From NCBI GenBank assembly GCA_000310025.1, contig FN648485.1, forward strand, positions 32,892 through 87,550: a stretch of 54,659 bases of DNA, written 5' to 3'. Made by a program: the position numbers and the translations under genes. Below the pieces are notes generated by a model, which saw only the letters and a program-made list of their open reading frames with translations, was not told the origin of the DNA and made no database searches. This DNA is from Ectocarpus siliculosus (Eukaryota > Sar > Phaeophyceae > Ectocarpales > Ectocarpaceae). Position 1 is the stretch's first letter. Each line of letters begins with the position of its first letter. Below are positions 816-49,803 of the stretch, one piece after another.

Positions 816-2054
816 TTGCGTAGGCTCTGCATTCCGTCTTCCCGCCCCGAAGAAAGTGTGTGCAGTGAGGGGCCGGGCGCCGTTTGTTCGCTCGTTGCTG
901 GGTTCCCTCAGGCTTTGCGGATCTTTCCTTTGTCGACACCTGGCCTCCTACCTCTTTTTTCCCTCAGAATTATTCTGAGGTTGTCGTTCGTTTTAGCGTT
1001 GCACTTATCACAATACCGGCTGGAGTCTGCCCTTGGCATACACATTGCTCCATTAGCTTGCCGGTGGGTGTTTCGTCTCTTCGGGACCTTCTAATTACCT
1101 ACTGCCTGATGCCCTTACGTTTTGGGTTCCATGCCCTTCCGTTCTTTGGGCCGGTATTCTGGCCTCGTACCTGGTGTTATTCGCTAATGCTATAACTCGC
1201 GGTACATAACACCTCACCTCACCCACATCGCCGGCAGCCGCGTGGGAGGTATCCCTCCCACCTAGGGAATGTCTTGATTCATGTAGCTTGTGCTTCATAT
1301 AAATATTATACTACTATCGGCCGTTCGGCCTAATCCTTTTCCTTTTGGGTTTGCGTGGCCAATGTGCACACCACAAAAATATATACCGTTCCTCGGTGCC
1401 TTTTCCCTTGGGGGTTGGCTGTCCAACGCGCACACCACACACCCACCTAATAATAAGTAGTGATCGTTCGGGTTGTTTACGATCACATCACACGGTCACA
1501 TGCCGTCTTAGTTCATGTGCCTCTCGCGTACTGACGTACCTCGTGGTGCACGCCCAACTAACACCAACACATATGCACACCAATATCGCCGTAGCTAGCA
1601 ATCCCGTCTGTGAGTAGGTAGACTTACACTTGGATAAGCCCGGCGAGACGTTGTGTTAGTTGGTCTGTGCGCTGTCATGTTTTCTCGACGGTACGCCTGG
1701 ATACACAGCATCGAGTCGACGTTCGCTTTGTAACGTAATTTCGCACGCGGCCATACAAATTGGGCCCCGAAAAGAAATATATACACCATGCTGTGTGCCT
1801 TTTATATGTTGACGGGAACCCGTGCGGTCCCTTCTCCGCGCCCAGGTTTCCTCTTCACAAAAAAAAAAAAAAAGAGTAGGGGACGGGGGGGGGGGGGATC
1901 TTGATCTCTGTATTCCCGACGCCCCGCCACCGCCCCTTTGTCTTGTCGCATGCCCAATGCTCTCATAGACCCTTCCTGTTTTGGTTCGAAATTCGAAATT
2001 GTTGTCTGTGTCGCCCCACTCCGAACTGTTCTTTACACTTGACTCACGGGTAGG
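816..2054. other. Non-coding spacer with poly-A and poly-G tracts
   Basis: No convincing coding sequence in about 1.2 kb. It contains an A-run at 1859-1874 followed closely by a G-run at 1886-1897. The A-run could be the 3' end of a retroposed sequence, in which case the upstream zinc-knuckle ORF and the downstream RT would be separate insertions. No target-site duplication was found. Confidence 0.5.
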
Positions 2055-10858: not shown

Positions 10859-10965
10859 TTGTTTGTGTCGTGGATTGGAATTTGATAAACATAGACCGGA
10901 GGGGGGGTGTAATGAGCTGTGCTCCGTGCCCCCCCCACCCCCCCGGAACAACCACGGATCAGGCC
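10859..10965 (+). repeat. Dispersed repeat R2, right piece
   Basis: About 105 bases match 54515-54620 closely, including a TAGACCRGAGGGGGGG block, GAGCTGTGCTCCGTG and a C-rich tract followed by an AA-rich stretch and AGGCC. One copy has an extra A inside the C tract. It is a non-coding dispersed element. Confidence 0.65.
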
Positions 10966-19010: not shown

Positions 19011-20930
19011 TTAAGCGGGGAGGGATGGTCGGGCGGCAACGCCGGCGCCTGTATCCATTTCGCGCTTCGTGAGCTCCTCCCAATCTCCGTCCGGGTACTC
19101 CACACGCCAGTAGGGGGCGCAGTAGTCGAAGACGGTGGCCTTGAAAACCTTGAGCTGTCCGTCGGTGTCGGCAAGTTCTCGACCAACTGGCGTCCCCATA
19201 GGAAAGAGCTGCAACGCTTGCTCCCTGCACGCTACTTCGCGTTCGCCCCGGGTAGGCGGTCCGGCGGGTCGTGGGGTGGCGTCCTCGCCGTGGTAGTCCT
19301 CGTATAGCGCGTGGAAGACGTCCAGCTGGAATGTCGAGAAGCTGTCGCCGGCCTCATCCTCAGTCATCCAAGGCGAGAGGGCACCATCTTGGGGACGGCC
19401 GTGGTACTCCCGTGTCCACGTCGTCGCGTTACCGGTACCGTATACCACCCGTCGGTCCACGAGCGTGTACAGCGGCATTGCGACGACGGAGGTGTCGGCC
19501 AGGCCAAGGTCGGACGACCACATGAGATGCGCAACCTCGTCCCCGAACGGCAGCCGGAGGTCCTGCGGTCGCACGTGGTAGGGCTTGAGACCGGGCGCTG
19601 CCACTTTGCGTCGGCGGATCCGGCGGCCGTTGAGTTGAACCGCGAAGCTTAGGCGGTTATGGATGACGTTGGTGACCTTCCACGGACCGGTGTAGTGGTC
19701 GTGCGTGAGCTTCGGGTGGTGACTGTCTCGGTGTAGCGTGTTGGCCGGTTCCTTAACGAGGACGGCGTCTCCAATGGCTGCTTTGGCTCCTGGTGACTCC
19801 CGCGCCACTCGGGCATTGTGGCGTTCCCGCCGACGGTTCTGGGCCTCGTGGCGGTAGGTGAGGATCTCCTGCGTCATGCGTTGCTGATCTGCGACAGTCC
19901 GCTCGAGTCCGAGGCCGAAGGAGCTGTCGTCCAGGGCTTGGGAGACGACGTCGATGTGGCTCCGTGGTTCCCGACCGAATAGGACTCGGTAAGGGGGCGC
20001 TCCGCCGGGCAAGGCCGCGTTGGGTGTCACCCGGTGGATCCGGGTAGCTACAGGCACCAACTCGTCCCACCGCTTGGGCCACGCGGTGCACAGATGGGAC
20101 AAGGCCTCGTGCAGCCACCCTCCTAACCTCTCGACCGCTCCTTGTGCGCGGGGGTGGTTGGTGGGGCCGTAGTTCGGCGGTACTTCCAGCCATCGGCAGA
20201 GGTGCCGCATCACCTCCGCGGTGAACTCGCCCCCCGGGTAGCAGCGGATCGAGAGAGGCAGGCCGAATACGAGCAAGAGCCCCAGGAGCTTGCGGCTCAC
20301 CCCAATAGCTTCCTTGGACTAGAGCGGGAAGGCCGTCAGGAATTTGGAGGCCCGGTCGACCACCGCGAGTAGGTAGCGATTACACTTGTCGAACGTGACC
20401 TTGAGGTCTTGGATACCCATCTCCAGCACCTCCCACGGTTGGAGGAGCCGTGCCGGCATCATGAGCAGCTGCTTGCTCCAGGCCCGCTACCGCCGGCGGC
20501 ACTTGCACGACAGGACATAAGCTCGGACGTCCTTCTTGAGAGTCGGCCAGTGGTAATTGCGATCAATAAAGAGGGTAGTGTGCGCTGCTCCAGGGTGGCC
20601 GTACGTGCCGTGGACCAGCGCCAGCACCGCGGGAACCAGCTGCTTGGGTACGGCGATCGCATAAGCCGCACGGGGCGTGCCACAGCAGATAATCGTCGGC
20701 CAGGACGCAATTGTTTTCCTCGCCACGTCCCGCTTCTAAATTGACCCGGAGGCATCGAAGTGTTGGGTCTCGCCGCTGCGCGTCCACGAGCTTGGCGGTG
20801 TCGCGCACGGTGTCCTCCATTTGCGCTAGCTTGGCGGACAGACCCCGTCGTAGGTCCGGCGTGTCCAGCGGGATGTTGCCGTCCTGGGGTTCTCCCGCGG
20901 CGTCGCCGGTGTAGGGGGTGGCGTCGACGG
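19011..20930 (-). pseudogene. Ty3/gypsy integrase remnant with C-terminal DGD-EEL module
   Basis: On the minus strand the order is as follows. A pre-integrase stretch has QRRDPTLRCL and LADDYLLWH. An HHCC zinc-binding region has VHGTYGHPGA and HWPTLKKDVRAYVLSCKC. A DDE core follows: the first Asp is in VLEMGIQDLK, and HPRAQGAVER supplies the Glu, but the usual SDNG motif reads CYPGGEF, so the second catalytic Asp is lost. There are in-frame stops at plus 20487-20489 and 20319-20321, and a frameshift near 20680. Downstream are a GPY/F-like module (DHYTGPWKVTNV, LKPYHV) and, at the C-terminus, YWRVEYPDGDWEELTKRE, which resembles small Tudor/SH3-like barrels at the end of some retrotransposon integrases. 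No RT, RNase H or LTR was seen. A Pro-rich open frame extends to about 21445. It is a different lineage from the 34.7-49 kb element. Confidence 0.75.
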
Positions 20931-33290: not shown

Positions 33291-34655
33291 GAGCTTGTTT
33301 CTTTCCCGTGAAAACTTCGGGGGGTAATCATATCCCGGGGGGGGAAAGAGCAATATATTGACACACATTCACACGCTGCCGTGTTCCCCCTATGGACGAG
33401 ATATATGCGAGTAAGCATTGAGGAGGGAAGGAAGGAGGGTAGCACGTGCGGAGCCCTGGCCCCTTCCGGTTACAAGCACACAACCGTCTTCTAGAGAGTA
33501 CCCCCCGACGCCGTTCGAGTTGAGAGTGGTGTCTGCAACCGCAAAGCATAGCTGCTATTTACGAGAACTGGTGAACGCTTGAGGTTGTGCGCTTCACCTG
33601 ACTACAGCAATACAGTACAACGATGAGACGTAGCGGGAGTGCGTGGGGCAGCGACCATACTCAACAACAGGGCCTAGCTCATCAGGGACTAGCGCAGGAA
33701 GGAGAGCGAGCCAGACGACGAAAGCGACATCTCCAGCAACAACGATTCGTCGGTGTTGCGTTCAGTTAACGTCGTTTCCAAACACGGTAAAATGCAATAC
33801 TTACTCTGGGCGCGTCAGCTCTGACACGTTGTGATCTGGTAAGTATAGTAAGTATTTGTGGCGAAAAACCACCGGAAAACAAATCCCCGAGGGGCTGTCA
33901 CAAAAAAAGGCTGATAATGTTTACTTTGCCCCGGCAGTACATTAAACAGGGCGGGACAACTTTGTTTTTGAAAAACAATTACCCCGGGCCGGGGGATACG
34001 AAAAACAGTTGACGGCAGTTTTTCGCCGAAATTGGGAAGGACATTATTGCGGGGGGAGGGGCGGATATGGGCACCACCGTCGATCTGTACTCCGATGTAT
34101 CTATGCTACAATATACAAGTTGCCAACAGACCAGAATGTAGAACACAAGAGCTCGACGTCAGGGCAAGGTTGGGCGATGAACGTTTTGAGGTTCAATGGT
34201 CCACATTGCTATACGTCGAGCGTGAGAACCGGAAGCATTATAGACCTTCCCCACCTTCCGACACTGCAGGTGGATGAACGTATGTCTTGGAAAACGCTGT
34301 GACGGTGCCCTCCAGTTTGTGTCACGAGGAATCAAGAGCGCAGACGCAGTGTGGAAGCTTTGGATGCTTGCAGTAAAGCATGACGGCCCGTTGTGGCTAC
34401 ATCCCGCCTCGGACAACCTACCACCAGCTGGTGACCGAAACACAGACAAAAATCCTTCTGGACTGCGCAATGTCTAATGTTAAATAGTCACTTGGTGCTT
34501 TGTGACAATTTGCGGTGGTGGAAAACGCGATGTGGACCAAAATGCCATACCCCAAAGTAAAGACACAGGTGGAGGTCGAACCCCCTTGTGGAGAAAATAC
34601 CCCTCCCCCCTCCACCTTGCCAAGGTGGATGTGCCTCATTTTCCTGAATTTTGTA
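33291..34655. other. Gene-poor stretch
   Basis: No convincing gene. It includes a short perfect palindrome CCACCTTG-C-CAAGGTGG at 34612-34628, immediately before the 91-bp repeat unit, and GC-rich low-complexity patches. Confidence 0.4.
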
Positions 34656-34747
34656 CCTTGAAAATCTCGGCCGTGCGGCAACCTTGGGAGTCACCTCGCC
34701 AAGGGGTAAATAACCTCGAGGTCATCGCAATGCCGGCAACACGATAC
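34656..34747. repeat. 91-bp tandem repeat unit, left of the retrotransposon
   Basis: One unit, beginning CCTTGAAAATCTCGG and containing GTGCGGCAACCTTGGGAGTC, CGCCAAGG and GCAATGCCGGCAACACGATAC. It ends exactly at the 5' LTR and is in phase with the four units resuming at 48972. The LTR retrotransposon therefore inserted within this array. Confidence 0.9.
34744..34747. other. Target-site duplication ATAC (left)
   Basis: ATAC directly precedes the 5' LTR and is repeated directly after the 3' LTR at 48969-48972. Both copies belong to the CGATACCTTGG junction of the 91-bp repeat. Deleting the element and one ATAC restores a normal junction. Confidence 0.85.
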
Positions 34748-34833
34748 TGTTATAGGATTCAGATGTGTAGACGGAACATAGAAGAGCTTGGTTCCTTCTA
34801 GAAGGCGCGGAGAGATGTAACTCTCCGCGGAAG

Positions 34834-34843
34834 GATAAAAAGC
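34834..34843 (+). promoter_or_regulatory. TATA-like element in LTR
   Basis: GGATAAAAAG lies a few bases after a perfect hairpin (CGCGGAGAG / CTCTCCGCG) and upstream of structured sequence and the gag leader. Position within the LTR fits a U3/R promoter core. Inferred only from sequence. Confidence 0.4.
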
Positions 34844-34892
34844 AGGGGACAGGATCTAGTAGCCCCTGCTTGTGCAGAGGATCCTGTGCCCC
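34841..34892 (+). promoter_or_regulatory. Two mutually exclusive hairpins in the LTR RNA
   Basis: Stem 1 pairs AGCAGGGG (34841-34848) with CCCCTGCT (34863-34870). Stem 2 pairs GGGGACAGGATC (34845-34856) with GATCCTGTGCCCC (34880-34892, one bulged G). Both use the same GGGG, so only one can form. The 3' LTR carries the same sequence. A role in polyadenylation control, dimerisation or translation is possible but not shown. Confidence 0.5.
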
Positions 34893-35017
34893 TTGGTGTC
34901 ATTCCTACCGATACCCAAGGCAACAGCTACTGCTGCTGCTGTTCTACAAGAGAAACAACAAGTGAGTTCTTCTTCACGGGTCAACCAGACTTCATCACGC
35001 GTGCATACCACTACACT

Positions 35018-35030: not shown

Positions 35031-35149
35031 TTATTCGTACGGTGTTGTCTGGCTTGGTTGTGTTTTGGCGCGGTTTGGTGCTTTAGGCTGCTGCTGCAGT
35101 TTTTGCGCTTTCGTCCCAACCACAGCTTAGCTTTGCCTCGCTTATCGGT

Positions 35150-38100
35150 ATGTCTCAATCTAGCGTCGGCTCATCGGACTCTGCTTCGGCGAGTCCTGAG
35201 CATTTGGAACGTTCGCGTTCGCCAGTGCCATCGCCTCGCGTAGCGACCTTCGGGTCCCCGGCAGCTGGCCGTCAGGCCACACAGCTGCTGCTGTCTTCGG
35301 ACGGTGCTCGTGCCGCTGACCCTGTTGCCGATGCCGCTCGTTTGTCAGAGCTTCGCGCTCAACGCATTCAGGAGAGGTTCGCCTCGTCGGTTTCGGTCGA
35401 CGCTAACCCCGTGGGTGCTGTCCTCAAACCGCCAGCACCCACACCTGGAACTTCGGTTCCTGCCTCTGTGTCTTTGGGTGTACAACAGCAGTCCGTCTCG
35501 ACGGCTGCTGGTGATGAGCTTTCTGAATTCCCGCGTGAACCACATGTCGACTCGAATTTTCCTCTCGCACCATCCACCGTTGAGCACCCTGCTCTTGGGA
35601 CCGACATCGGTTTCGACCATGTTGCTGGCCCTGTAGTACCACGCTTGTCCAGTCGCTCGGCTTCTCGCAGCACGTTGCAGTTCGACTATACAGTGCCGGC
35701 GATTCCCCCTTTTCCTTCTCGTAGCGATCGTGTACAAGCAGCGGCTCGCGCTCAACGGCTTCGTGACCGTCGTGTATCTGCTTCAGTGACATCACCGCTT
35801 GCAGATTCCGCTGCATCACCAACCACTGTTCCAGTAGTTTCGACTACACGGGCGATTTCGATTGCCTCTGGTACACTCCCCACAGTAGCCTCGTCTACCC
35901 CAGCTCTTTCGGTTGATTCTACTGCATCTGATCCCGTGATTTCGCCCACACAGGCCATTTCGTTTGCCTCCGATGCTTTAGCTTCAGTAGTTTCGACTAC
36001 ACGTGCAGTTTCGACTGCTAATGTGCCTGTCCCTGCGGTCTCGACTGCTGTAGGTGTGTTTGCCCCCATCCCTTTAGCTCCGCCGCTACCCACAGTTTCG
36101 ACTGTTCGCGGTGCTGCTGCCTTAGCCGCCCCACCTTTGCGTACCGTTTCGACGCTGCGTACTGCTGTGACGTCTGCCCCCCCACATGCCTATCATGTTC
36201 CCACTACTGGTGCACCTGTCTCTGCGGTTTCGACTGCTGCACGTGTACTTTTGCCCATTCCATTAGCTCCGCCCCTGCTCACAGTTTCGACTGCTGGCGA
36301 TGCTAATATTCCTGCAGCTCCGCCTCTTCGCACCGTTTCGACCCTGCGTACAGTGTCGTCTGCCCCTTTCCCCGCCCACACTACTTCCACACAGAACCCT
36401 GCGTCAGCGGCTTCGGCTGCTGTAAACACCGCTGTTTCTATGCCAGTAGATACGCCTCTGCTCGCATTTTCCACAGATTCACGTGTTCACACGGCGGGTT
36501 TGGATCCTACCGTTTCGACCGACTCTGCCATGCTAGCTCCTGCTTCGGCGCCCCTAGCTGCGACCTCGGTTGTTTCAGCAGTACCCTTTGCCCCTACCCT
36601 TTCCCCTTACCCTTACGCCGTGCCCCCACCCCCCCCCATGCTTTCTTCTTCGCATGAACGTGCTGCTACGGCTGAAGCTTTGCATCGTCTCGAAATCACA
36701 GAGCGCTACAATCGCCATCTCCACGGCCTTCTTAGCACCATGGTGACCACGACTCCGGCCCCCAAGCACGAGCCGACATCTTCAGTTCGGCTTTCGACTC
36801 CCGAGCTTCGGGATTCCGCCACCGGCGGCGGAACAAGGTCTGCAATCACCGGCCGGCCGGCCGAGCCTGTCCAGATGGTTCTACCCCCCGCGGCGTCGGC
36901 GACTTCGGCCACCATCGCTGCTTCGGCGGCACCCTCGGCTTCGGCCACCATCGCTGCTTCGGCGGCACCCTCGGCTTCGGCCACCATCGCTGCTTCGGCG
37001 GCACCCTCGGCTTCGGCCACCACCGCTGCTTCGGCGGCGCCCTCGGCTTCGGCCGCCACCCCTGCTTCGGCAGTACCCCCGGCTTCGGCCACGGCTTCGG
37101 CCCCGGCTTCGGCCACGGCTTCGGCCACGGCTTCGGCCACGGCTTCGGCCACGGCTTCGGCCACGGCTTCGGCCACGGCTCCGGCCACGGCTGCACCTCT
37201 CTCCTGCCCGCGGTCGATCCCCGCCGCCCTGTGGGACGTCATGTCCGCGGGTGCGCGCTCGACCGCATGGACGGACGCCGTTCGCATGGCGAGCGGCGCC
37301 GCCGTCGATGCTGACCGGGCGGCCGCTCGACAGGCCCAGGACGATCTCGCAGACGAAGAATTCCACCAGGAAGTTTCTGCCAGAGAGGAGGAGCTCAGGC
37401 TCCTGCGAGCGACACGCGCTTCGAATGCGAAGCAAATCATCGACCTAGAGGCGCTTCAAAAGAAGTGCGAACAACAAAGGAGTCAACTGGCCGCCACCCT
37501 GACGGCAGATCGGCGCCAGGAGGATGCCCTTGTTGAAGCGGGCCGCAAGGCCGGCAAACGACGGGAGCAGGACCTCCGCGAACGCGAGGAGCGGTCGTCC
37601 CGTGTCTCGGGAGTCGGCGGGCGAGCTGCTTCGGCACCGAACACCTCTGCCGCTTCGTCTCGAACGTATGCGGCTTTAGCTTCGACCAGCCCGGTCACCC
37701 GCTCCTCGTCGTCGCGACGTGGCCCCATTGCGTTCGAGCCAGGTGATTTCAGGTTCACCCCGGCTAAGCTAGCCGATGTTGCACAATATCAGCAGTTCAA
37801 CTTCCTTCCTGGGGATAGCCAATTGGTCAGGGACTTGGCCACGGAAATGGCCATCGCGTTGCCGGCGGCCGTCACCATACAGGAGGCGGTGGATGTGGCT
37901 AACGCCTCCCGTCCGGATCTTCGGGATCTGGCCGGCCGTTTCCTCGCTGGGATGCGGACGGCCAACGCCCGTGCCACTGCTCCGGTGGTGTACCCTGGCT
38001 GCAGCGGTCCGCCTTTAGAGGCTTCCTATGGGTTCCAGCAGCCGGCGCCGGGTCGTGTCAAGCAGGCGCAACCGAGTCGGGAGACTGGTCCTGGTAGCTC

Positions 38101-40453
38101 GGGCGAGGAGTCTGGCTGGAGCTCGGCTGGAGCATCGCGTCGACCCCCGGCGCCTTCGTCCTCTTCGGTGGGTGGTAGCCGGGAAAGAAAGGTGGCCAAG
38201 CGTGGCGGGGATGGCGCTCGTGGCTCCAAGAACAAGAGCAAGACCGGGTCAGGCTCGGACACCAGCTTGCCCCGCAAGCCAGGTCGTCAAAGGCAAGTAG
38301 TTCCGTCCCTCATGGACGCGGCTTCGGATGCTCGTTTCCTTTTGCGTGATGATTTTGTCCCTCCGGCTTCGGCCCCCCCCGTTTCTTCGGAAACTCGTGT
38401 TGCGTTTTCGAACCTTCCGGCTTCGGCCCCCCCCGTTTCTTCGGAAACTCGTGTTGCGTTTTCGAACCTTCCGGCTTCGGCCCCCCCCGTTTCTTCGGAA
38501 ACTCGTGTTGCGTTTTCGAACCTTCCGGCTTCGCCCCCCCCCGTTTCTTCGGAAACTCGTGTTGCGTTTTCGAACCTTCCGGCTTCGCCCCCCCCCGTTT
38601 CTTCGGAAACTCGTGCTGCGTTTTCGAACATGCCACAGGCTTCGGCCCCCCCCGTTTCTTCGGAAACTGTTGCACCTCCTGTTTTTTCTACCGCTGATTG
38701 TGCTGTAGGCTCAGGAATCGCACACAACCCCGGGTTCTCAAACCCCACCCCCCTTTCGACTTTTGTGCCCGTACAAGATGTTCATCATGTTGTACCGTCT
38801 TGGGATCGTGTTCCGCCTGCTGCTCCTTCGGTTGCAGCTGCTGCACCCCCTGTCGTTTCGGATGATAGTGTCTTGCCACTTTCTTCCAACATTGCACATG
38901 CTCGTCAAGCCACCGTAGATGCGGCTGCTTCGGCAGTTCGCAAGGCTCACGTAGTTACTGTCCAACGGGCGTACATCACTCTGAACTTGAAAAAAGTTGG
39001 AAATGTCGCTACCATGCCCTTCCCTTCAACTTTGTTGCCTGGGGACGGCTACCAACAGCTTATCCGCACAACACGAACGGCCTTGTCCGACATATTGTTG
39101 CTGTGTGATGACCAAAGCGAAGGGTTGGACAGTACTGATTACGTGCCTGGATGGGAACGGCCTCTCGAAAAGAAACTTTCGGGTGCGATCACCCCTGACA
39201 AGCCCTCTACTGCCGATCTTGTCCTCTCCATCGCTGATTACTTTCAGCAGGTGAAGAGAAGCTTGGACGGCGGCGCCACCGGACCAGAAGCTTTTCAGTT
39301 GCTGTTGCGTCATCTTGCGGAGCAATTTGATGTCGGCGACCGTCAAGAGTCGTTTTTGAGGCTTCAACAATTTGGAGTAGCAGATGGTACTTCTTTCGCG
39401 GATTACCTTCGTGCTTTTCGTTTGCTGGTTTCGTCTGTGACTGGTTCTGAGCGTACTTTGGCCCCTAGCGTATCCATGGTCCTAGAAATAGTGCGGCATT
39501 CGGTCTGCAAGCAATTTCCGAGTTTGTCTCCGATTTTGTACCCGGGTGCTCTGGCCACGGCCGTCACCCCCTTTGCGTCGATTGCGGATATGTGGGAGGC
39601 GTTCGCGCCTCTAGCGACAAATAAAACCCCGGCTATCGGCGGTTCATCTTATTTTTCGTTGTCTTCGATGCGTGGCTCTTCGCAGCCTCGGCGGTCCCAA
39701 CACCGCGCCCCCGCGCCTTCGGGCCAGTGGGCACCAGGTTCTGCTCAGAACCCTGTAGTTTTGCCGGTACAATCGCACGATGCTGACCCTTTCACACGCA
39801 AATATAATTCTTGGCCTGCTTCGCAAGCCGATTGGTCTGATGTATACGCTCTCACTTCTAGTTTTCGTAACACGGAGGATCCTTTTTTGTGGACTCCTTT
39901 GTTGACACAAGAGGCTCGTTCGCAAGCCTTCCGCGAAAACAGGAATCGCTGTCTGAACTGCTCGGGTGAAGACCATTCCATGAAGCAATGCGTTGCACCA
40001 TTCACGAATTCTAGTGGGTTATTGAACCCTGAGTTGGGTCTCCTCAATGACGATTCTGCTGCTTTTAGACGTTGGCAAGGCCGTATGCGGTCTTTTCGAC
40101 GAAAAAGTGCGGACAACCGCCAAAACAATCAGGGTAGACGCCACCAGCGCTCTTCCTCTTCGTCCTCTCAGCGTCGAAACCACGCTGGGAATCGCCGTTC
40201 CGACGGCGGTAGTTCCCCTCACACTCATCGGACACAATCGCACAACGGTGGGTATGCCCCAGGAAATTCTGCGGGTAACTCTCACCCTCAGCAACACCCT
40301 TCGATCAACACCAACCACACTGGTGTTCTGTCCCTCTATCAACCACCAACACATGCACACACCGGTCCTTCGTCTGGCATCATGGTTTCGACCAATCACA
40401 ATGCCCGTCAACCTGGCAACTTCCAAAATGGTGGTCGTTCTCGCAGCGGATGA
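35150..40453 (+). CDS. gag: Gag polyprotein, oversized (1767 aa)
   Basis: ATG at 35150 is the first good start after the leader. The first two thirds are Ser/Ala/Thr/Pro/Val-rich low complexity dominated by VSTA, ASA and similar repeats. They include 12-residue units SASATIAASAAP (36-bp repeats, about 36895-37075), a run of SATA units (12-bp repeats, about 37080-37190) and five copies of an 18-residue unit PASAPPVSSETRVAFSNL (54-bp repeats, 38362-38660). A charged coiled-coil-like segment lies at about 37290-37600. A helical capsid-like region with LLRHLAEQF and FADYLRAFRLLV is at about 39190-39640. A canonical zinc knuckle, CLNCSGEDHSMKQC, is at 39950-39991, before a basic Arg/Ser/His-rich tail. 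Typical Ty3/gypsy Gags are a few hundred residues, so the N-terminal extension is exceptional. Expected role: particle assembly and RNA packaging. The frame is intact and ends at UGA 40451-40453. Confidence 0.9.
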   Translation: MSQSSVGSSDSASASPEHLERSRSPVPSPRVATFGSPAAGRQATQLLLSSDGARAADPVADAARLSELRAQRIQERFASSVSVDANPVGAVLKPPAPTPGTSVPASVSLGVQQQSVSTAAGDELSEFPREPHVDSNFPLAPSTVEHPALGTDIGFDHVAGPVVPRLSSRSASRSTLQFDYTVPAIPPFPSRSDRVQAAARAQRLRDRRVSASVTSPLADSAASPTTVPVVSTTRAISIASGTLPTVASSTPALSVDSTASDPVISPTQAISFASDALASVVSTTRAVSTANVPVPAVSTAVGVFAPIPLAPPLPTVSTVRGAAALAAPPLRTVSTLRTAVTSAPPHAYHVPTTGAPVSAVSTAARVLLPIPLAPPLLTVSTAGDANIPAAPPLRTVSTLRTVSSAPFPAHTTSTQNPASAASAAVNTAVSMPVDTPLLAFSTDSRVHTAGLDPTVSTDSAMLAPASAPLAATSVVSAVPFAPTLSPYPYAVPPPPPMLSSSHERAATAEALHRLEITERYNRHLHGLLSTMVTTTPAPKHEPTSSVRLSTPELRDSATGGGTRSAITGRPAEPVQMVLPPAASATSATIAASAAPSASATIAASAAPSASATIAASAAPSASATTAASAAPSASAATPASAVPPASATASAPASATASATASATASATASATASATAPATAAPLSCPRSIPAALWDVMSAGARSTAWTDAVRMASGAAVDADRAAARQAQDDLADEEFHQEVSAREEELRLLRATRASNAKQIIDLEALQKKCEQQRSQLAATLTADRRQEDALVEAGRKAGKRREQDLREREERSSRVSGVGGRAASAPNTSAASSRTYAALASTSPVTRSSSSRRGPIAFEPGDFRFTPAKLADVAQYQQFNFLPGDSQLVRDLATEMAIALPAAVTIQEAVDVANASRPDLRDLAGRFLAGMRTANARATAPVVYPGCSGPPLEASYGFQQPAPGRVKQAQPSRETGPGSSGEESGWSSAGASRRPPAPSSSSVGGSRERKVAKRGGDGARGSKNKSKTGSGSDTSLPRKPGRQRQVVPSLMDAASDARFLLRDDFVPPASAPPVSSETRVAFSNLPASAPPVSSETRVAFSNLPASAPPVSSETRVAFSNLPASPPPVSSETRVAFSNLPASPPPVSSETRAAFSNMPQASAPPVSSETVAPPVFSTADCAVGSGIAHNPGFSNPTPLSTFVPVQDVHHVVPSWDRVPPAAPSVAAAAPPVVSDDSVLPLSSNIAHARQATVDAAASAVRKAHVVTVQRAYITLNLKKVGNVATMPFPSTLLPGDGYQQLIRTTRTALSDILLLCDDQSEGLDSTDYVPGWERPLEKKLSGAITPDKPSTADLVLSIADYFQQVKRSLDGGATGPEAFQLLLRHLAEQFDVGDRQESFLRLQQFGVADGTSFADYLRAFRLLVSSVTGSERTLAPSVSMVLEIVRHSVCKQFPSLSPILYPGALATAVTPFASIADMWEAFAPLATNKTPAIGGSSYFSLSSMRGSSQPRRSQHRAPAPSGQWAPGSAQNPVVLPVQSHDADPFTRKYNSWPASQADWSDVYALTSSFRNTEDPFLWTPLLTQEARSQAFRENRNRCLNCSGEDHSMKQCVAPFTNSSGLLNPELGLLNDDSAAFRRWQGRMRSFRRKSADNRQNNQGRRHQRSSSSSSQRRNHAGNRRSDGGSSPHTHRTQSHNGGYAPGNSAGNSHPQQHPSINTNHTGVLSLYQPPTHAHTGPSSGIMVSTNHNARQPGNFQNGGRSRSG
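40451..40453 (+). promoter_or_regulatory. In-frame UGA between Gag and Pol (possible readthrough stop)
   Basis: The codons read GGA UGA CUC. Pol continues in the same frame with no stop until 44063. UGA followed by C is a leaky context in many eukaryotes, so stop readthrough could make Gag-Pol. The alternative is a nonsense mutation in a single Gag-Pol frame. Confidence 0.5.
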
Positions 40454-41774
40454 CTCATCGGTGGTGGTTCGCCTACTTCCCCCGGACCGCCTTCAGCATC
40501 TTCGGGGACCTCATCTCGTTCATCACAAGACGCTCGTGTGTCACGCTCTGTTGCCTCTAATACTTCGGTTTTATGCAACAACGACAATACTTCGGTATCT
40601 GTCGCGCCGTCACACACTGTTGCCTCTAGCACTTCGGTCCTACGCAACGATAACCACACTTCGGTGAATGTTATCCCTTCTGGTACTTCGGTGCCGCACA
40701 ATAACAACCATACTTCGGTACCCGTTGTTTCCCCCAGTGTCGATCAGGTCGGTATCCAGACAAATGCTCTCGTCCCACCTTCTACATCGCACTTATCATC
40801 TGCCACCTCTGCGTCTCTGCCTCTTCGGGCTGGCTCTCCGTCAGAAATTAACCAGTCTGGCGCGAGTGCTGTCTTGAGGTGCGCGAACACAACCGTAGGA
40901 CCTTCGGGGCCATCGAGTACCGCTCGTTTGTCGGGCACCGCTCGTTCGCTCCCCCCGTCGTCTGCAGATCAGACCGGCCGTAGCCATGCGCTTTGGACGA
41001 TTGAAGAGGAATCGCCTGAATTGGTTACCTCGGGTGAATCTTCGGATACGCTCAACTCGTCTGTGCTCGCTTCCGTTGAGGGTTCGCCCTCGATTGTTGC
41101 ACCGGTAGCTAACTTGACTGGTTCCGACCGGCAAGTTACAGGGTCAAATTCGCCTGGCTTCGAATCGCGTTGTTCTCTTGGTCCTGACCGCCGAACATCA
41201 TCAGATTCCGCCACGAGATATTTCGACCATGGATCGTCTTCGGACGCTCCATCCCTTCCGACGCACGCTCGCCCCACGGCGCCCGATACCAGGCCGCCGC
41301 GACCGACGTCGACAGTGTTGACACCACGGCTTCGGGAGGACCCTCCCGGAGTGACCTCCGAACAGCCGGCGGTCTCGCGTACCTTGTTACGGAGGAATGG
41401 CCAGGAGCACCACGCCCGGTGTGGTTCTTTAACCGACCCGGCCTTGGCGGCCGTTCCTAGCGAAAGCAATCTGTTGAATGACACCTTACGAGGCGTTTCT
41501 TCAGGTTTAGAAATGGGGCGCACCCAGCGTGATGTCGCTGGCCCAATTATTGCGAACAATTCGGCTACCGTCGATTCTTCGCCGGTCTCTGACATACCCG
41601 AGACCGTCCCCATGGACGTTCACGTCGTAAATTACAATGCGGGCGTTTCGGCTGCCTCCGTTTCGGCTACACCAGCTTCGGCTGCCACCTCAGCTTCGGC
41701 TGATCGCACTCCAGGTGTTTCGACTCCTGCAGTTCCCGCTGTCTTCGACCCGTCTCACGAGTATTGCACTCCTG

Positions 41775-42240
41775 ACATGGTCTTCTTTTGGCAGCCCCCC
41801 TCTCCCTTTTCCCAATGGACCCCGTCGACTTTTGTGGTCGATGGAGTGGTGTACTCGTGTGCTGAGCAGTTTTTCGCTGCGGAAAAAGCTCGTCTTTTCG
41901 AAGACCATTGCGCTTTACAAAACATCATGCGCGTGTCCGATCCTGCCTTACACAAGAAGTTTGGCCGTGGTGTCCGTGGTTTCGACCCATCACTTTGGGA
42001 ACAGGAGCGCGAAAATATTGTGCTCACTGGCTCTTACGCAAAATTTAGTCAAAACTCCGAGTTGCGCGAGCATCTTCTCGGATCTGGCGACAAAATCCTT
42101 GCCGAAGCTAGTCCCTACGACCGTATTTGGGGCATTGGCCTTCAAGCCGATGATCCTGACGCTCTATCCACCTCTCGATGGCGTGGCCTCAATTTGTTGG
42201 GCAACGCCCTTCAACGAGTACGCAGTCTTTTGCGATGCAA
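41775..42240 (+). CDS. NADAR (YbiA/DUF1768-like) domain within Pol
   Basis: About 155 residues match the NADAR superfamily end to end. They start with FFWQPPSPFSQW. Next come YSCAEQFFAAEKARLF, carrying the family's conserved Glu-Gln helix; KKFGRGVRGFDPSLWEQER; and YAKFSQNSELREHLL. The domain ends with EASPYDRIWGIGL and WRGLNLLGNALQRVR. These are the expected landmarks in the expected order, with no stop or frameshift, so the domain looks functional. Known NADAR proteins act on ADP-ribose-linked or glycosidic substrates: YbiA is an N-glycosidase in riboflavin metabolism, and some NADARs remove ADP-ribose from nucleobases (family knowledge). In this polyprotein it sits between the Gag/Pol junction and the protease, so it could be packaged in the particle. 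A role in NAD-metabolite handling or countering ADP-ribosylation-based defence is inference. Confidence 0.9.
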
Positions 42241-44065
42241 TGCCCCGCCGCCCGAGCGCAGCTCTCGTTTGCTGCCCCCCAACGACCACGTTTCGACGTC
42301 GTCTCAACATAACGCGGTCAATGAAGTTAGCCCTTCTACATACCAGCGTCTTCGGATGGCCTCAACCCCTCCGTCGACTGAACGATTCGCGTCGTTTTCA
42401 CAATACGCTGCGAATGTTCCATCGGATCATGACACCGCTGTTTGGGCCGTGTCTTCCGGGTGCCCTCAGCCATCCTCTTCCTCTTCTTTGCTTCCTGAGC
42501 AAGGTCCGGATTTGGTTGATGGTGTTGTTACCATCGATGATGACTCTTTCACCACCCAAATCCTCACTCACAGTGGTTCAGCTTCTGTTCAGTTTGGATG
42601 TGTTGCTCTTTTAGACACGGGTTCCCCGCAGTCTTTTATTAGTGCATCTGCGTGGGAATCCATGAAAGCCGCTTCGGCCGCTTCGTCGTTGTCTGAGAAA
42701 CAAACCCAACCTCGCTGTTGGGGAGGTTTCGGCGAATCTGCTCCACTTCAAACTTCGACTATTGCCCGTTTGAGCGTGCAGTTTCTTCGCATGCGCCTTC
42801 CTACTTCCTCTCTCGCTGTTTGGGCGTACGTTGTTCCCGATGGTGTTATGCATCATGACGTGCTCCTTGGGGGAGACAGTTGGATGCGGTTTAGCGACCG
42901 CTCTTACCGCACTTTGCGTGCCAAACGCCCTGGTGACCGTGTTTTTGGTGAGCTTACCCTGGCTCAGCATAGCAGTTGCGGTGCCACCGCATTTGCTCAC
43001 GATTTGTCTTCCACAGATGGTAACTACCAGCTTCGCTATGCTGGAAAACATTCCGTCCAACTTCACCCTGAACATAGCCTTGTTCCGGTTAATTTGGTAC
43101 GCAGCGATGGCTCTCCAGCCCTCGTGGGTAACTATCTCGTGGATATGCTTCCACAATGTGCTATGTTTTCTTCCGAGGAACCAGGCGACGTTCTGGGTAC
43201 AGCTTCGGCTCCCCTTCTTCGCGTGCCTCTCAGTGCTGTGTCTCGCCACAGTTTGAGCGATGGTCTTCAATCTGCGGCTCAAGATCACACCACTGCTTCG
43301 GGCAGCTGGGTTCCGGGTCCTGTTTCGACAGATGGCATTGATTCGTCTGCCACGCATCGCATTGATGACCCCTTCGTGTATAATTTGCATGAGCGACCCA
43401 CGCCGTCGCAAAGCGGCAAAAAGGACCCTGGTTCTGCCAGTGCTTCTCTTTCGTCGCCTCCGCCTGCTCTTCTCGAGCGGTTGACGTCTGAACAACTTCA
43501 GAGTTTTTCCCACGTATGGGATAAGCTCCCCTGCCATCTCCGGGAGATTTCTTTTGATCTCCATGGTCCGGGTTGGACTCCGGATGTCATCACTCAGCTT
43601 GGTAACGTCCTGTGCGACTATCATGATGTCTTCTCGAGTTCCCCCACCGACTTTGGATCTTGTTCGCTTTTTCCTTTCAAGCTTACAGTTCCTCCGGGCA
43701 GTGCACCCGTCACGTCTCGTCCATACCGCGTTAACCCCCCGGTGGCGAAACAAGTTGACGCGATCCTTGATCAATATCTTGCGGCTGGTCTGATCAAACA
43801 TTCGACCTCGCCCTACTCGAGTCCTTTGGTAGTCATACCGAAGAAAGCTGGTGGTGTTCGCATCACTGTCAACTATCGCAAGCTCAACAAGCTTTGTGCT
43901 TTGAGCCAGCTTCCGATTCCTCGAGTTGATGATACTTTGGACAAGTTGTTGAAAGGGCGAATTTATTCCCTTTTCGACATGAAGTCTTCATTCCACCAAA
44001 TCACGGTTCACCGTGATACAATCCCTTTGACGGCATTCGTGACGTCTTCCGGGCTTTTTGAGTAG

Positions 44066-44953
44066 TTGAAGATGCCTCAGGGCAGTTCTGCTGCCCCTGG
44101 GTGGTTTTGCAAGGTGGTCAACGAAGTCATCAAAAATCTCCACGGTGTTGCATCGTACTTGGATGATTTGATCGCTTTCGACGACAACCCTGCTTCTCAT
44201 GTTGATACCATGCGCGCTCTGTTTGAACGCTTGCGCACACACAACTTGAAACTCACCCCACCGAAGGCCACCATTGGCGCTACCGAAGCGGATTTCCTCG
44301 GCCACACCATCTCCCCTGACGGTGTTCGGCCTAACGGGGCCAAGGTTGCGGCCCTCACCCAAATGCCCATGCCAAAGGATGTTAAACAACTTCGCTCTCT
44401 TCTCGGCGGCCTCAGCTACTACCGCAAGTTCCTTCCCCGCATGGCTACGCGAGTTCGACCTCTGACCACTCTTCTCAAGAAGCAGGCGACGTTTGCCTTC
44501 ACCCCTGCCATGGAGCAAGCTGTTCGCGTCCTGCTGTCTGAGTTGGCCAATCCTCCTGTCTTGGTTTATCCAGACTGGGATGCCGTTACGGACGGCTCGC
44601 GACCTTTTCGCCTCTACTGTGATGCTAGTCGCGATGGGTTCGGCGGGACTCTCGAACAAGAACAGCCGGATGGCTCCATCCGGCCCATCGTTTTCATCAG
44701 CCGAGCTACTTTGGACTCCGAACGTCATTGGACTCCCCTCGACCTCGAGGCGGGTAGCATCGTATGGTGCATCAAACGACTTCGCGGTTATTTGTGGGGC
44801 ACGAAATATATCGCATTTTTACCGACCACAAATCTCTTGAGCATTTTGCCAAGGTGGGGGAGAACAATGCCCGCGTTCAGCGTTGGCTTGAATTCTTATC
44901 GCCTACAATTACACTCTCGAGTACCGCAAGGGTTCAGCAAATGGCAACGCTGA
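44066..44953 (+). CDS. Pol segment after the RT nonsense codon (RT palm/thumb, start of RNase H)
   Basis: This 295-codon stretch is the continuation of Pol in the same frame as the upstream part, starting at the codon after TAG 44063-44065. It holds the RT YLDD box, the GHTIS-type motif, and the RNase H start YCDASRDGFGG with DLEAGSIVW. After about 44815 the true RNase H sequence moves to another frame, so the last 40 or so residues of this frame are spurious. Confidence 0.85.
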   Translation: MKMPQGSSAAPGWFCKVVNEVIKNLHGVASYLDDLIAFDDNPASHVDTMRALFERLRTHNLKLTPPKATIGATEADFLGHTISPDGVRPNGAKVAALTQMPMPKDVKQLRSLLGGLSYYRKFLPRMATRVRPLTTLLKKQATFAFTPAMEQAVRVLLSELANPPVLVYPDWDAVTDGSRPFRLYCDASRDGFGGTLEQEQPDGSIRPIVFISRATLDSERHWTPLDLEAGSIVWCIKRLRGYLWGTKYIAFLPTTNLLSILPRWGRTMPAFSVGLNSYRLQLHSRVPQGFSKWQR

Positions 44954-45011: not shown

Positions 45012-48000
45012 TTGACACCGGATGACGATGAGGAGAGCGTATTCTTCATCCGTTCTTGTGGCCTTACGCCTTCTGGCCATCGCGCCGTGGGTGTTGGCTT
45101 GGGTGGGCTCGTCCCGACTTCCCCGACTTCGGTCTTGGGTGGGCTGGCCCCCTCTACAGATGATTTTGTCGACTTCCGTCGGCATGGTCCACGTCTCTCG
45201 CCGTCAGGCCTTTCGTCTCCGTCTGGCATCTGGAACATCGCACCCTGGCCGTCCATCAACTCCCGCGGGTTGTCTCCTTCACTACGACGCCTGGGTGATA
45301 GGACCCTCGATTGGTCTGGCTCCTTACGTTCTTCGGTGGAGGACATTTTGGCTCTCGAGCCGGAGTCTTCGCCGGCCGTCTCGCCGACTGCAGCATCACG
45401 ACGGACTCTCGACCCTACTCAACTGATTTCCACGCGAACTCGCCGTCGCACGGCGGTTGTGGCAGGCACGCCCCTCCCGCCCGTGGACTATGGTTTCTGC
45501 GAGGACCCGCCTGCTCCTACTCGGATTTCCGCTTCGCCCCGATCGTTTCGACGTTCCCCGCCTGCACAATCAGCATCGACGGCGCCCCCCGTTTTTACCA
45601 GGTTGGTTTCGACTCCTGGTGCTGACCCTTCGATCTCGGACCTTCCTACGGCTCTGGCTCGTGGAAGGGATCTTGCGTTATCGACGCATCCTGCAACTTC
45701 GGTTGCTCCTGCCCAGCAGTCTTCTGCTGCTCCCGATTCTTCGGAATCTTCGACGCGTTTGGTTTCGACCACTTGTACGCCTTCGTCTTCGGTTTCCGCT
45801 GCTACTCTGCCTTCGGGTGGATTGCAGCCGGAGCCTCAGGAATCGGCCCCCTCTTCTATCGAGGCGGCTTTACATTCTTCGGCAGATTTAGCCTTCCGGG
45901 CGTCTGTCGAACGTTTCTCGCATGCTGATTGGGCTCGCGAGCAACGTAACGAACCTGTTTGTGATACAGCTATTCGTTTCATCCTTCTAGGTCGGCCTTC
46001 GGCTCTCCCTCCGGATTTCCTGGATCATCTTCCGTCCGCTCGTCGACCTCCTCTGTCGGAGATTCGTGACCTGTCTAACAAAGGCCGGTTACATGTTGGC
46101 GATGATGGTTTGGTCTTGCTTGTTCGCAAGCAAACAGCGCCCCCGTCGTCTACGACCACACGTCCTGGCGGGCGTGCTGCTCGCCTTCTCAACGACGAAC
46201 CCATTCGGATTTATGTTCCCATGCTCAGGCGTCCGTGGATCATGCAAGCCTGTCACGCTGATGCATCCTGCCACCTCGGTGCCGCTCGCACGCTTAGCAT
46301 ACTGGAACGTTTTTATTGGTGGGTTGGCATGAGTGTTTGCACGAAGTGGTGGGTACGGCATTGTTTGCGATGCCAAGCTCGCAAGTCATCTCGTCAAACG
46401 CCTCGATGGCCTACTTTGTGCCTTCCGCTGCCTTCGGGCCCCGGTGTATCGGTGAGCGTCGATTATTTCGGTCCCCTCCCGTTGACACCGCGCGGAAACG
46501 CATATAGTCTGCTTTTCACTGACCGTTTCAGCCGCCGTGCTGACATGTACGCGGTTACGGCTGCAGAATTCACCGCCGAAGGCACCGCTGACGTACTTGT
46601 CAATCGGTATATCCCTTTATGGGGTTGCCCTTTGAGTCTCCAGTCTGATAATGGCTCTCAGTTTTGTTCTAAACTGTCGCAGGCTGTATACGCCCGTCTG
46701 GCTATACGCAAAGTGGCTACCAGCTCTTACCATCCCAACGGCAATGGGGGTGTGGAGCGCGTAAATCACACTATGGCTCAGATGTTGGCTATGGTCGTCA
46801 ATGAGAGGCAAGATGATTGGGACATTCATCTGCCGCACGTTGAGTTTGCCTACAACAATTCGGTTAGTGCCGCTACTGGTTTGGCGCCCAACGAGGTGCA
46901 TATGAACCGACTGCCACGCATGCCGATGACTGTTTTTGAGCATCCATATGCTCGAGGCCACCAAAGCTTGCATCGCGATCAACTTGAGTATTGCGATCTT
47001 GCTGCTGATCGCCAACGTCGTTCTTACGATTTAGTTCGCGAACAGCACAACCTGTCCGTTTCGAGGATTGAGCGGCGTAACTCCGCTCTATCGGATGCGT
47101 TGCGCAAGGTCCCCTCATACACCGTCGGTGGATGGGTTTGGGTGTACAACACCGAATCTACCATTCGCCAAGGTGTTCGTTCAGGCACGGATGACAAGGT
47201 CCTCAAGGCTAAGTTGTCTTTCCTGTGGACTGGTCCGTTCAAGATCTTGGCCGTGGGTCCGTGTCCTGACGCTCCCGACGGTTGTCCTCTGGCTTCCAAG
47301 TTACTGTATTTGGATCTTCCATCGGATCTGCCGGGTCCGGACTCGAAAAACCGTGTGTCAGTTGCGCGTTGCAAGCCTTGCGCTAATCTGCATGACACTG
47401 AAGACTTGCCTCGGTTCCTGCCTGCCGGCCTTTCACCGTATGTGCTAAACTCCTATGCGAATAAATCTCCTCCCTACCATGTTACGGAAGACGACGTGTC
47501 GACTCCGGTCGAACGTCTCGAGGTTGACCGCATTAGTGGCCATCAGTCTGTTCGGGGCCGTGGTGGCACCATCGCTGTTTTATACCAAACGCATTGGAAA
47601 GGTCTTCTTCGTCCTTCTTGGGAACGTGAGATGGACCTCCAGCATTCCAAGCCCCACATTCTCCGGTACTGGACGGGTTCGCCTGATCAACATCGACAAA
47701 CGAATCGTCGCTATCGGGCGATGCGTATTGGTGCGGCCACCCGCGAGATGGCGCGCGCTAAAGGGGAGCGAGCTTTGCCTTCGGGTTATTCGCTCGTCTC
47801 TCGTTCAACTTGGGACCGTCGCTTCGCCAACACTCCGCTACCTGCAGGCGCCTTCTTCTGGTACAAAGCTCGCGATGGATTCTGGTGGTTGGGCAAGATT
47901 ACTGGACCGCCTCTACCGTCCGACTTCTACGTCGTCCGCTTCTTGGACGATCCTGGCCCTGTCAAGTTCGCCCTTCCTGATGTTCGCTACTCCACCGCTG

Positions 48001-48140
48001 AAACCGCCGTCTCCGGATCCTGGTGCCTCCAAGTTCACAGCGGCAGTGCCCTTTTTAAGGGGATCCTTCGCAACGTCGACATGTCGCGTGGTGACCCCGG
48101 GACTGATTCGTTGCCTGATAACGTTGCGCGCCCCCATTAA
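45012..48140 (+). CDS. Pol segment after the frameshifts (spacer, integrase, chromodomain, C-terminal module)
   Basis: A 1042-codon frame that resumes Pol after the second frameshift; sense in this frame actually begins near 44905 with the end of RNase H. The first 290 or so residues are Ser/Pro/Arg-rich low complexity. Integrase has an intact HHCC and D-D-E triad. The chromodomain has VERLEVDRISG, THWKGL and RPSWEREMDLQ, the usual Y/W-K-G and W-E landmarks. Such domains guide insertion to marked chromatin in chromoviruses (family knowledge). The terminal module, FFWYKARDGFWWLGKITG and YVVRFLDDPG, resembles a Tudor/SH3-like barrel. The integrase half of this copy therefore looks undamaged. 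Confidence 0.88.
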   Translation: MTPDDDEESVFFIRSCGLTPSGHRAVGVGLGGLVPTSPTSVLGGLAPSTDDFVDFRRHGPRLSPSGLSSPSGIWNIAPWPSINSRGLSPSLRRLGDRTLDWSGSLRSSVEDILALEPESSPAVSPTAASRRTLDPTQLISTRTRRRTAVVAGTPLPPVDYGFCEDPPAPTRISASPRSFRRSPPAQSASTAPPVFTRLVSTPGADPSISDLPTALARGRDLALSTHPATSVAPAQQSSAAPDSSESSTRLVSTTCTPSSSVSAATLPSGGLQPEPQESAPSSIEAALHSSADLAFRASVERFSHADWAREQRNEPVCDTAIRFILLGRPSALPPDFLDHLPSARRPPLSEIRDLSNKGRLHVGDDGLVLLVRKQTAPPSSTTTRPGGRAARLLNDEPIRIYVPMLRRPWIMQACHADASCHLGAARTLSILERFYWWVGMSVCTKWWVRHCLRCQARKSSRQTPRWPTLCLPLPSGPGVSVSVDYFGPLPLTPRGNAYSLLFTDRFSRRADMYAVTAAEFTAEGTADVLVNRYIPLWGCPLSLQSDNGSQFCSKLSQAVYARLAIRKVATSSYHPNGNGGVERVNHTMAQMLAMVVNERQDDWDIHLPHVEFAYNNSVSAATGLAPNEVHMNRLPRMPMTVFEHPYARGHQSLHRDQLEYCDLAADRQRRSYDLVREQHNLSVSRIERRNSALSDALRKVPSYTVGGWVWVYNTESTIRQGVRSGTDDKVLKAKLSFLWTGPFKILAVGPCPDAPDGCPLASKLLYLDLPSDLPGPDSKNRVSVARCKPCANLHDTEDLPRFLPAGLSPYVLNSYANKSPPYHVTEDDVSTPVERLEVDRISGHQSVRGRGGTIAVLYQTHWKGLLRPSWEREMDLQHSKPHILRYWTGSPDQHRQTNRRYRAMRIGAATREMARAKGERALPSGYSLVSRSTWDRRFANTPLPAGAFFWYKARDGFWWLGKITGPPLPSDFYVVRFLDDPGPVKFALPDVRYSTAETAVSGSWCLQVHSGSALFKGILRNVDMSRGDPGTDSLPDNVARPH

Positions 48141-48700: not shown

Positions 48701-48968
48701 TGTTATAGGATTCAGATGTGTAGACGGAACATAGAAGAGCTTGGTTCCTTCTAGAAGGCGCGGAGAGATGTAACTCTCCGCGGAAGGATAAAAAGCAGGG
48801 GACAGGATCTAGTAGCCCCTGCTTGTGCAGAGGATCCTGTGCCCCTTGGTGTCATTCCTACCGATACCCAAGGCAACAGCTACTGCTGCTGCTGTTCTAC
48901 AAGAGTAACAACAAGTGAGTTCTTCTTCACGGGTCAACCAGACTTCATCACGCGTGCATACCACTACA
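48701..48968 (+). repeat. 3' LTR (268 bp)
   Basis: Same length as the 5' LTR with one substitution (T at 48906). It is followed by ATAC at 48969-48972, which completes the target duplication and re-enters the 91-bp array. Confidence 0.95.
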
Positions 48969-48971
48969 ATA

Positions 48972-49335
48972 CCTTGGCAATCGCGGCCGTGCGGCAATCT
49001 TGGGAGTCACCACGCCAAGGGGTAACACATCCAAAGGTCATCACAATGCCGGCAACACGCAACCTTGGCAATCTCGGCGGTGCGGCATCTTTGGGAGTCA
49101 CATCGCCAAGGGGTAAAAAATACGAAGGTCATCGCAATGCCGGCAACACGATACCTTGGCAATCTCGGCCGTGCGGCAACCTTGGGAGTCACCTCGCCAA
49201 GGGATAAAGAATCCAAAGGTCATCGCAATACGGGCAACACGCAACCTTGGCAATCTCGGCGGTGCGGCAACCTTGGGAGGCATCTCGCCAAGGGGAAAAA
49301 AATCTCGAGGTCATCGCAATGCCGGCAAGAACACG
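48972..49335. repeat. Four 91-bp tandem repeat units, right of the retrotransposon
   Basis: Units start at 48972, 49063, 49154 and 49245, each with CCTTGGCAATC, a GTGCGGCA block, GGGAGTCAC/GGGAGGCAT, CGCCAAGG and a GGTCATC...GCAACAC end. Alternating units resemble each other more (GATACC versus GCAACC ends), suggesting a 182-bp higher-order unit. The CCTTGGC and GCCAAGG blocks within each unit are complementary and could fold. ORFs drawn here are repeat translations. Confidence 0.95.
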
Positions 49336-49803
49336 CGATTGTAGTTATTCATGTGTGTGTGCGGAGGAACAAGGGAGGAACAAATCGGGGGCGCGCAGAT
49401 TGGAGTGCGGAGGGGGCCCACGGAAGGTGCATAATTTCCATAGGGAAGGGGGGCTCTCGAGAAAAAAATGGTTGGAGCTGACGTGGACACGCACGACAGA
49501 GCCAGTGTGTCCCTCCCTTCCCGCGCTCCCGTCCCCCTTTCGTGCAAAGAGCATATACACCATCAGCGCTATGAGCAGCACGGGCACTACTGCTGACCCC
49601 CAGCATGCTGCAGCAGCACAGTCGCAGTCTAACTGCAGAAGAAGGAGGAAAATATGCAGAAGCACGTCGCGAAGATCAGGACCAAAGTACGAAGGTTGCG
49701 TGACAACCTCACGGATGAGGTGAGGGGGGCACACCCACCCGATTTAGTATGAACCTTTTGCCCCGTCCCTTTGGATTTGCACCCAATTAAAAACCCGCCA
49801 CGA
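49336..49803. other. Gene-poor stretch
   Basis: No supported gene. Sequence is purine-rich in places and includes CAGCAGCA near 49610. It leads into the CT microsatellite. Confidence 0.4.

Follow-up and report, generated by a model that had tools for sequence, protein, structure and literature searches.

Element structure and the position of the NADAR domain

The window analysed here, a stretch of 54,659 nucleotides from the brown alga Ectocarpus siliculosus (contig FN648485.1, positions 32,892 to 87,550 of the forward strand), harbours a Ty3/gypsy retrotransposon that carries a NADAR domain in its Pol frame; Table 1 compiles the features of the element. The two long terminal repeats (LTRs) differ by one mismatch in 268 (two in 271 positions compared, one of these lying outside the LTR), and ATAC flanks the element on both sides as a short target duplication. 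The insertion is situated within an array of 91-bp tandem repeats (34655-34747 and 48971-49336). The motif TGGCG, located two bases past the 5' LTR, may belong to a tRNA primer-binding site. For the protease, we take LLDTGSPQSF to be a typical aspartic protease motif. The LTRs and the domain order protease, reverse transcriptase (RT), RNase H, integrase, with the protease placed by its motif only, agree with the element type named in an earlier note, which had been made from the sequence alone. The mapped order also places NADAR between the Gag/Pol junction and the protease, as that note had claimed. It had further described NADAR as intact and in frame while RT and RNase H are broken. This holds for the window copy, in which RT contains a stop and RNase H a change of frame close to its end; in some other copies, both domains can be read without interruption. 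The locus is best explained as one copy from a brown-algal Ty3/gypsy lineage that bears NADAR, a copy that is young but meanwhile damaged.

Table 1. Features of the retrotransposon, given in positions of the window
Feature	Position	Strand	Remarks
5' LTR	34748..35015	+	268 bp, TG...CA; target-site copy ATAC at 34744-34747 upstream
gag open frame, stop to stop	35087..40450	+	first Met codon 35150; long Ala/Ser/Pro-rich repeats
gag zinc knuckle	39950-39991	+	
In-frame TGA (next base C), gag/pol boundary	40451..40453	+	candidate readthrough stop
pol N-terminal linker	40454..41755	+	poorly conserved between subfamilies
Stem-loop	40463..40491	+	begins 9 nt past TGA; arms 40463-40471 / 40483-40491 (9 bp), loop 11 nt
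Possible pseudoknot	40478..40508	+	loop 40478-40482 with 40504-40508, 5 bp
NADAR (YbiA-type) domain	41783..42235	+	Pfam, structural and alignment comparison
Aspartic protease motif LLDTGSPQSF	42608..42637	+	motif alone; no Pfam match
Reverse transcriptase	43835..44311	+	PF00078 in both pieces; interrupted by stop codon at 44063-44065
RNase H	44498..44848	+	PF17919, PF17917; frame change near domain end
Integrase zinc-binding and core domains	46218..46736	+	PF17921 E=3.9e-12; PF00665 E=7.3e-9
Weak chromodomain 3' of integrase	47520..47672	+	PF00385 E=0.005, 17.1 bits vs cut-off 25.1
3' LTR	48701..48968	+	followed by ATAC

No Pfam match was found in the gag frame, including a separate run of its last 483 codons, and no Pfam domain in the linker preceding NADAR (window and representatives of three subfamilies); an Rfam scan of the window gave no match. 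The gag frame contains repeat arrays of short period (12/36 bp) and of 54 bp, which code for Ala/Ser/Pro-rich stretches (36890-37190 and 38305-38690). Past the weak chromodomain, a Trp-rich stretch (47853-47900) appears Tudor-like by eye; the Pfam search of 47700-48137, which includes it, gave no match. Elsewhere in the window, an ORF on the forward strand (2043-4337) is by eye retroelement-like, with RT/RNase H of DIRS or Ngaro type, and a frame on the reverse strand (19011-20318), likewise judged by eye, is integrase-like.

The domain recurs and is under purifying selection

The identification as NADAR, which the earlier note had proposed, was confirmed by a match to the profile PF08719 with 155.8 bits (curated cut-off 35.1) over profile positions 1-163 of 163 and by a structure comparison, in which the segment showed the YbiA fold. 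In the structural alignment, identity was 32% to the NADAR of Phytophthora nicotianae (8BAU) and 28% to E. coli YbiA (2B3W); lower-ranked structural matches were treated as noise.

In order to define the occurrence of the domain, the contigs of the source genome (189.46 Mb, 492 contigs) were searched with the profile, which gave at least 150 NADAR matches, all above the cut-off (150 of 230 candidates were scored). We fetched 60 loci, all of them selected for matching NADAR: the 40 best-scoring ones besides the window with 5-kb surroundings (one truncated at the edge of its contig) and 20 with lower scores as the domain alone. Together with the window, the resulting 61 rows fall into 10 clusters at 90% amino-acid identity. 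Two clusters are single frame-damaged copies (L049, L050); therefore at least eight subfamilies exist, with 15, 14, 11, 9, 4, 3, 2, and 1 rows. Among the 41 long stretches, NADAR is followed by the protease region in all cases and by RT and RNase H in 39 each. The earlier note had named two refuting outcomes, the lack of a significant profile or structural match and the absence of the domain from every other copy, which would speak for a singular event; neither was observed. Two of the copies (G000:C3:3913787-3914242 and G000:C489:435177-435536) lie in open frames listed at 10887 and 6365 amino acids, far exceeding pol.

A database search with the NADAR alignment gave 5647 proteins at E<=1e-10 (7999 candidates scored). 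Among the longer proteins, 24 have such a NADAR, and nine of these also carry RT according to precomputed Pfam assignments. Six of the nine belong to Ectocarpus sp. CCAP 1310/34 (P0121, P0122, P0123, P0124, P0128, P0129); the others are P0131 and P0133 from ENA contigs and P0136 from an NCBI contig. For P0131, a Pfam run confirmed NADAR, RT, RNase H, and integrase. The combination of NADAR and RT in nine database proteins, as well as the open frame that both domains share in the window copy, led us to reject the reading that a NADAR gene just happens to neighbour the element. A one-off insertion or passenger in a single copy, for which we found no supporting point, was likewise rejected as practically negligible, given the number of genomic matches and subfamilies, these nine proteins, and dN/dS values far below 1 (see below).

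The conservation of the active site was determined by counting residues in the 56 NADAR copies that are free of stops and reach at least 90% of the length, using the numbering of the 168-residue segment at 41756-42259. E37, K44, and E117 correspond to residues of the ADP-ribose site of 8BAU and are kept in 55, 52, and 56 of the 56 copies, respectively; W125 is found in 56 and D122 in 55. These five positions (E37, K44, E117, W125, D122) align with E43, K50, E125, W133, and D130 of 8BAU. Here, 8BAU numbers are chain numbers less two, an offset deduced from the fact that all named residues then agree, and residues were placed by hand on the alignment. Eleven side chains have been named as ADP-ribose contacts in 8BAU (PMC11543638). 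Ten of these are kept in the window if an exchange of Tyr to Phe is counted (nine are identical, and Y84 is replaced by Phe); the remaining one, D86, corresponds to Pro. K75 of 8BAU makes no direct ligand contact (PMC11543638). The glutamate that the YbiA subfamily has in the last strand (E125 of 8BAU) is present as E117 in all 56 copies. The type of NADAR associated with DarT1 (BC4488) was rejected, as the position of that subfamily's aspartate holds glutamate in 56 of 56 copies. Judged by the residues kept, an ADP-ribose hydrolase or N-glycosidase activity is predicted. The conservation of the fold would also be expected if NADAR served Pol for binding or folding without being used as an enzyme. 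We regard this as very improbable, because nearly every intact copy retains the active-site residues, across subfamilies of which the seven others are 52-85% identical to that of the window.

The earlier note had cautioned that intactness in a young element does not by itself prove selection. For an answer, codon models were fitted to 22 copies that are intact in all four domains and represent five subfamilies (7, 2, 4, 8, and 1 rows). The dN/dS values were 0.093 for NADAR, 0.114 for the protease region, 0.064 for RT, and 0.076 for RNase H, and omega=1 was rejected for NADAR (2dlnL=346). When every intact row was used, the values were 0.228 for NADAR (56 rows), 0.175 for the protease region (30), 0.105 for RT (34), and 0.123 for RNase H (31); note that the choice of intact copies pulls all dN/dS values down. 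NADAR has the highest value in this larger set and is thus the least constrained of the four domains, though still far below 1. A comparison of three subfamilies gave identities of 54-67% for NADAR, 20-25% for the linker, and 19-34% for the 77 residues past NADAR. With dN/dS well below 1 across five subfamilies, the NADAR domain is under purifying selection.

A candidate readthrough signal at the gag-pol junction

In the window, gag and pol lie in one frame and are separated by a single TGA-C; the first Met of the pol frame follows at 41513, about 1 kb into it. The TGA occurs at the family position in 26 of the 41 long stretches (subfamilies F0-F4), and the next base is C in 25 of these and G in one. 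In the remaining 15, the upstream part is out of frame, the contig ends (L044), or the TGA is missing. Altogether, TGA was seen in seven of the eight subfamilies, in F5 and F8 in a single copy each and there followed by C. TGA together with a stem is found in one of three copies of F5 (L062), in the one copy of F8, and in neither of the two copies of F6.

One representative of each of the seven subfamilies was inspected for a downstream structure. The stem begins 8 nt past the stop (9 nt in F5 and in F2, the subfamily of the window) and comprises 6, 7, 9, 6, 10, 5, and 6 bp in F0, F1, F2, F3, F4, F5, and F8, respectively. Between 0 and 1422 of 4000 shuffled sequences equalled the stem, and only F2 and F4 pass the level of 1 in 100. 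A joint p of 1.8e-5 presupposes independent subfamilies, which they are not. The pairing of the loop with downstream bases, i.e. the pseudoknot, did not go beyond shuffles, 213 to 2594 of 4000 of which matched it. For covariation, six junctions of four subfamilies were aligned. Stem and loop-downstream helix together gave 88.9% paired cells, in comparison to 31-52% when slid, and the putative pseudoknot helix gave 86.7% over the six sequences. The covariation signal is modest, its score being reached by 32 of 500 shuffles; three pairs change on both sides, a number reached by 240 of 500. When four junctions were folded singly, none exceeded its shuffles (z -1.3 to +1.0); it is only the comparison across subfamilies that speaks for the stem. 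The recurrent UGA-C with its stem is a candidate readthrough signal.

The junctions of MuLV and of the Candida element Tca2, which the candidate signal resembles, combine an in-frame stop (UAG or UGA) with a short spacer (8 nt in Tca2) and an RNA structure (PMC2194720). In contrast to these, the spacers found here, of 8 or 9 nt, are not purine-rich, and the pseudoknot is putative. According to the same source, the Tca2 arrangement of UGA, 8-nt spacer, and pseudoknot gave no readthrough in yeast (PMC2194720).

Origin, possible function and related systems

Among the best 120 of the 5647 database matches, the named eukaryotes are Ectocarpus, Pylaiella, Scytosiphon, and Chrysoparadoxa. NADAR genes of host type were found in the first three genera, and the source genome itself contains an exon-split one (L073:406-2266, G000:C24). 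Piecewise, its identity to P0004 of Ectocarpus sp. 13 AM-2016 is 83%, 62%, 90%, and 95%, where the 62% piece is a short exon with the alignment running past the exon edge. An Ectocarpus host protein with a NADAR domain, Esi0017_0056, has been described as stress-induced (PMC7922944).

In a tree of 62 NADAR sequences, unrooted and built from high-scoring matches only, a branch with support 99/92 sets 18 Pol-type rows, 10 ENA rows, and six host-type genes apart from the rest. The Pol-type rows comprise eight from the genome and 10 database proteins (four with RT in the Pfam column); among the ENA rows, RT was shown for P0131 only and the rest were joined by similarity; the host-type genes are those of four named brown algae, L073, and P0008. 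The other side holds 26 bacterial-named or nameless rows and two eukaryotes (P0018, P0110). This grouping, the host-type genes of three algal genera, and the exon-split gene in the source genome suggest an algal host gene as a more likely source of NADAR than direct acquisition from bacteria. A bacterial origin has been proposed for the Ectocarpus elements, as blastp matches outside Ectocarpus were almost exclusively bacterial (PMC12477816); our tree, in contrast, joins host genes. Several features of the tree are compatible with direct horizontal transfer from bacteria: apart from being unrooted and limited to high-scoring matches, it does not reject a clade of Pol-type NADARs without host genes (p-AU 0.27), the fork between Pol-type and host NADARs was not settled by a quick 74-row tree, and the stramenopile or eukaryote proteins P0018 and P0110 fall among the bacterial rows. 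We consider such a transfer, which could be combined with any role of the domain, somewhat unlikely.

A loose EY motif preceding the domain was considered as a mark shared by Pol and algal host NADARs. It occurs in eight of the best 120 matches, three of the Pol-type clade (P0001, P0002, P0085) and five of host type (P0004, P0008, P0009, P0011, P0015), and was dismissed as weak, because two limpet proteins have EY and P0131 lacks it.

Within the element, RT and NADAR identities correlate (Pearson 0.84, Spearman 0.48, for 28 non-independent pairs of 8 sequences), and the trees of both domains agree in the main groups, F1 with F3 and P0121 with F2. The NADAR tree is weak in its deeper branches; F4 joins F0 by RT and is outside F0+F2 by NADAR. 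Comparisons of this kind point to a shared history of Pol NADAR and RT.

NADARs, including the oomycete one of YbiA type, hydrolyse guanine-linked ADP-ribose (PMC11543638). For those not encoded in DarT1 operons, activity on guanine-ADP-ribose was seen in vitro, but reportedly no efficient action in the DarT1 toxicity setting, so that the physiological substrate may differ; the roles of eukaryotic NADARs are largely unknown (PMC11125620). The earlier note had proposed a role in counter-defence or as an aid to replication, which is still an inference. The explanation that we favour as a whole, a host-derived NADAR which is made by readthrough and removes guanine-linked ADP-ribose in the particle, is tentative, and we would not call it probable. 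An ancestor of the lineage would have taken up a YbiA-type NADAR and kept it as an enzyme. As a rule, ribosomes would terminate at the UGA that closes gag, and the stem-loop, possibly a pseudoknot, 8-9 nt past it would allow some of them to read through. NADAR would then be made at low dose within a Gag-NADAR-PR-RT-RNaseH-IN product, packaged inside the particle, and possibly released by the protease. There, it would most likely hydrolyse N-glycosidically joined ADP-ribose, chiefly on guanine of element RNA or cDNA, and this removal would benefit the element by unblocking reverse transcription. That the domain is an eraser from a host gene which, expressed via readthrough, strips host-placed ADP-ribose from these guanines is clearly unlikely; if true, it would be a retroelement counter-measure against nucleic-acid ADP-ribosylation and would imply that brown algae modify transposons in this way.

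A conserved active site is also consistent with an enzyme acting on soluble ADP-ribose derivatives or on NAD-derived signals of host defence, a role that has been proposed for phage NADARs (PMC9503650). We regard this as fairly unlikely for the Pol domain, as a minor Gag-Pol product, to which the junction points, would probably suit a task inside the particle better than the clearing of a diffusible signal. Alternatively, NADAR might process element RNA in another way, for example in the repair of cleaved RNA or at RNA ends. Processing of RNA intermediates has been suggested for the Ectocarpus element (PMC12477816); the element pieces given to Pfam gave no match to a ligase, a KptA-like, or a 2H domain, and this reading appears quite improbable.

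The earlier note had suggested a domain not previously reported in LTR retrotransposons. This is incorrect: the presence of NADAR in Pol is in essence already published for Ectocarpus. According to a paper of 2025, one of four gypsy lineages in Ectocarpus bears the domain N-terminally in Pol throughout its families; an example is Gypsy-12_Ec32, which has a C-terminal chromodomain (PMC12477816). The main text of that paper mentions neither readthrough nor a stop codon nor a frameshift, and its accessible passages contain no dN/dS. As far as these passages go, the selection estimate, the link to a host gene, and the candidate recoding signal are new, and none of the three needs the counter-defence reading to be true. 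A literature search that covered the best-ranked PMC articles and the main text of PMC12477816 found no published report of the readthrough signal or the grouping with host genes. In a retroelement that keeps NADAR under selection, transposition could serve as a readout of what the domain contributes. An eraser that proves important would point to nucleic-acid ADP-ribosylation as an obstacle to retrotransposition that has gone unnoticed. Kinship with a host gene allows one to test in which direction the domain was captured, and a simple reporter for recoding, of stramenopile origin, could be built from the recurrent UGA signal.

Compared with known systems, the lineage of Gypsy-12_Ec32 is likewise a brown-algal gypsy lineage with NADAR in Pol, likened here by description and not by sequence. 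NADAR also occurs in ORF1 of Tx1 LINEs of the Pacific oyster, which are retrotransposons as well, but non-LTR and, by the account of PMC12477816, with a divergent NADAR. The NADARs of 8BAU and 2B3W are free-standing proteins, unlike the domain embedded in Pol. In nido-like and yellow head viruses, which are RNA viruses, the NADAR fold also lies inside a replication polyprotein; such viral cases have been discussed (PMC9503650), and Foldseek gave E values of about 1e-5 to 1e-4 at 15-27% identity for them. The Pol proteins of Ectocarpus sp. CCAP 1310/34 contain NADAR, RT, and RNase H according to the Pfam column, P0121 and P0122 also integrase. Their gene models of 732-1398 amino acids are shorter than the Pol frames found here and are perhaps fragmentary; P0121 is 98% identical in RT and 92% identical in NADAR to the subfamily of the window.
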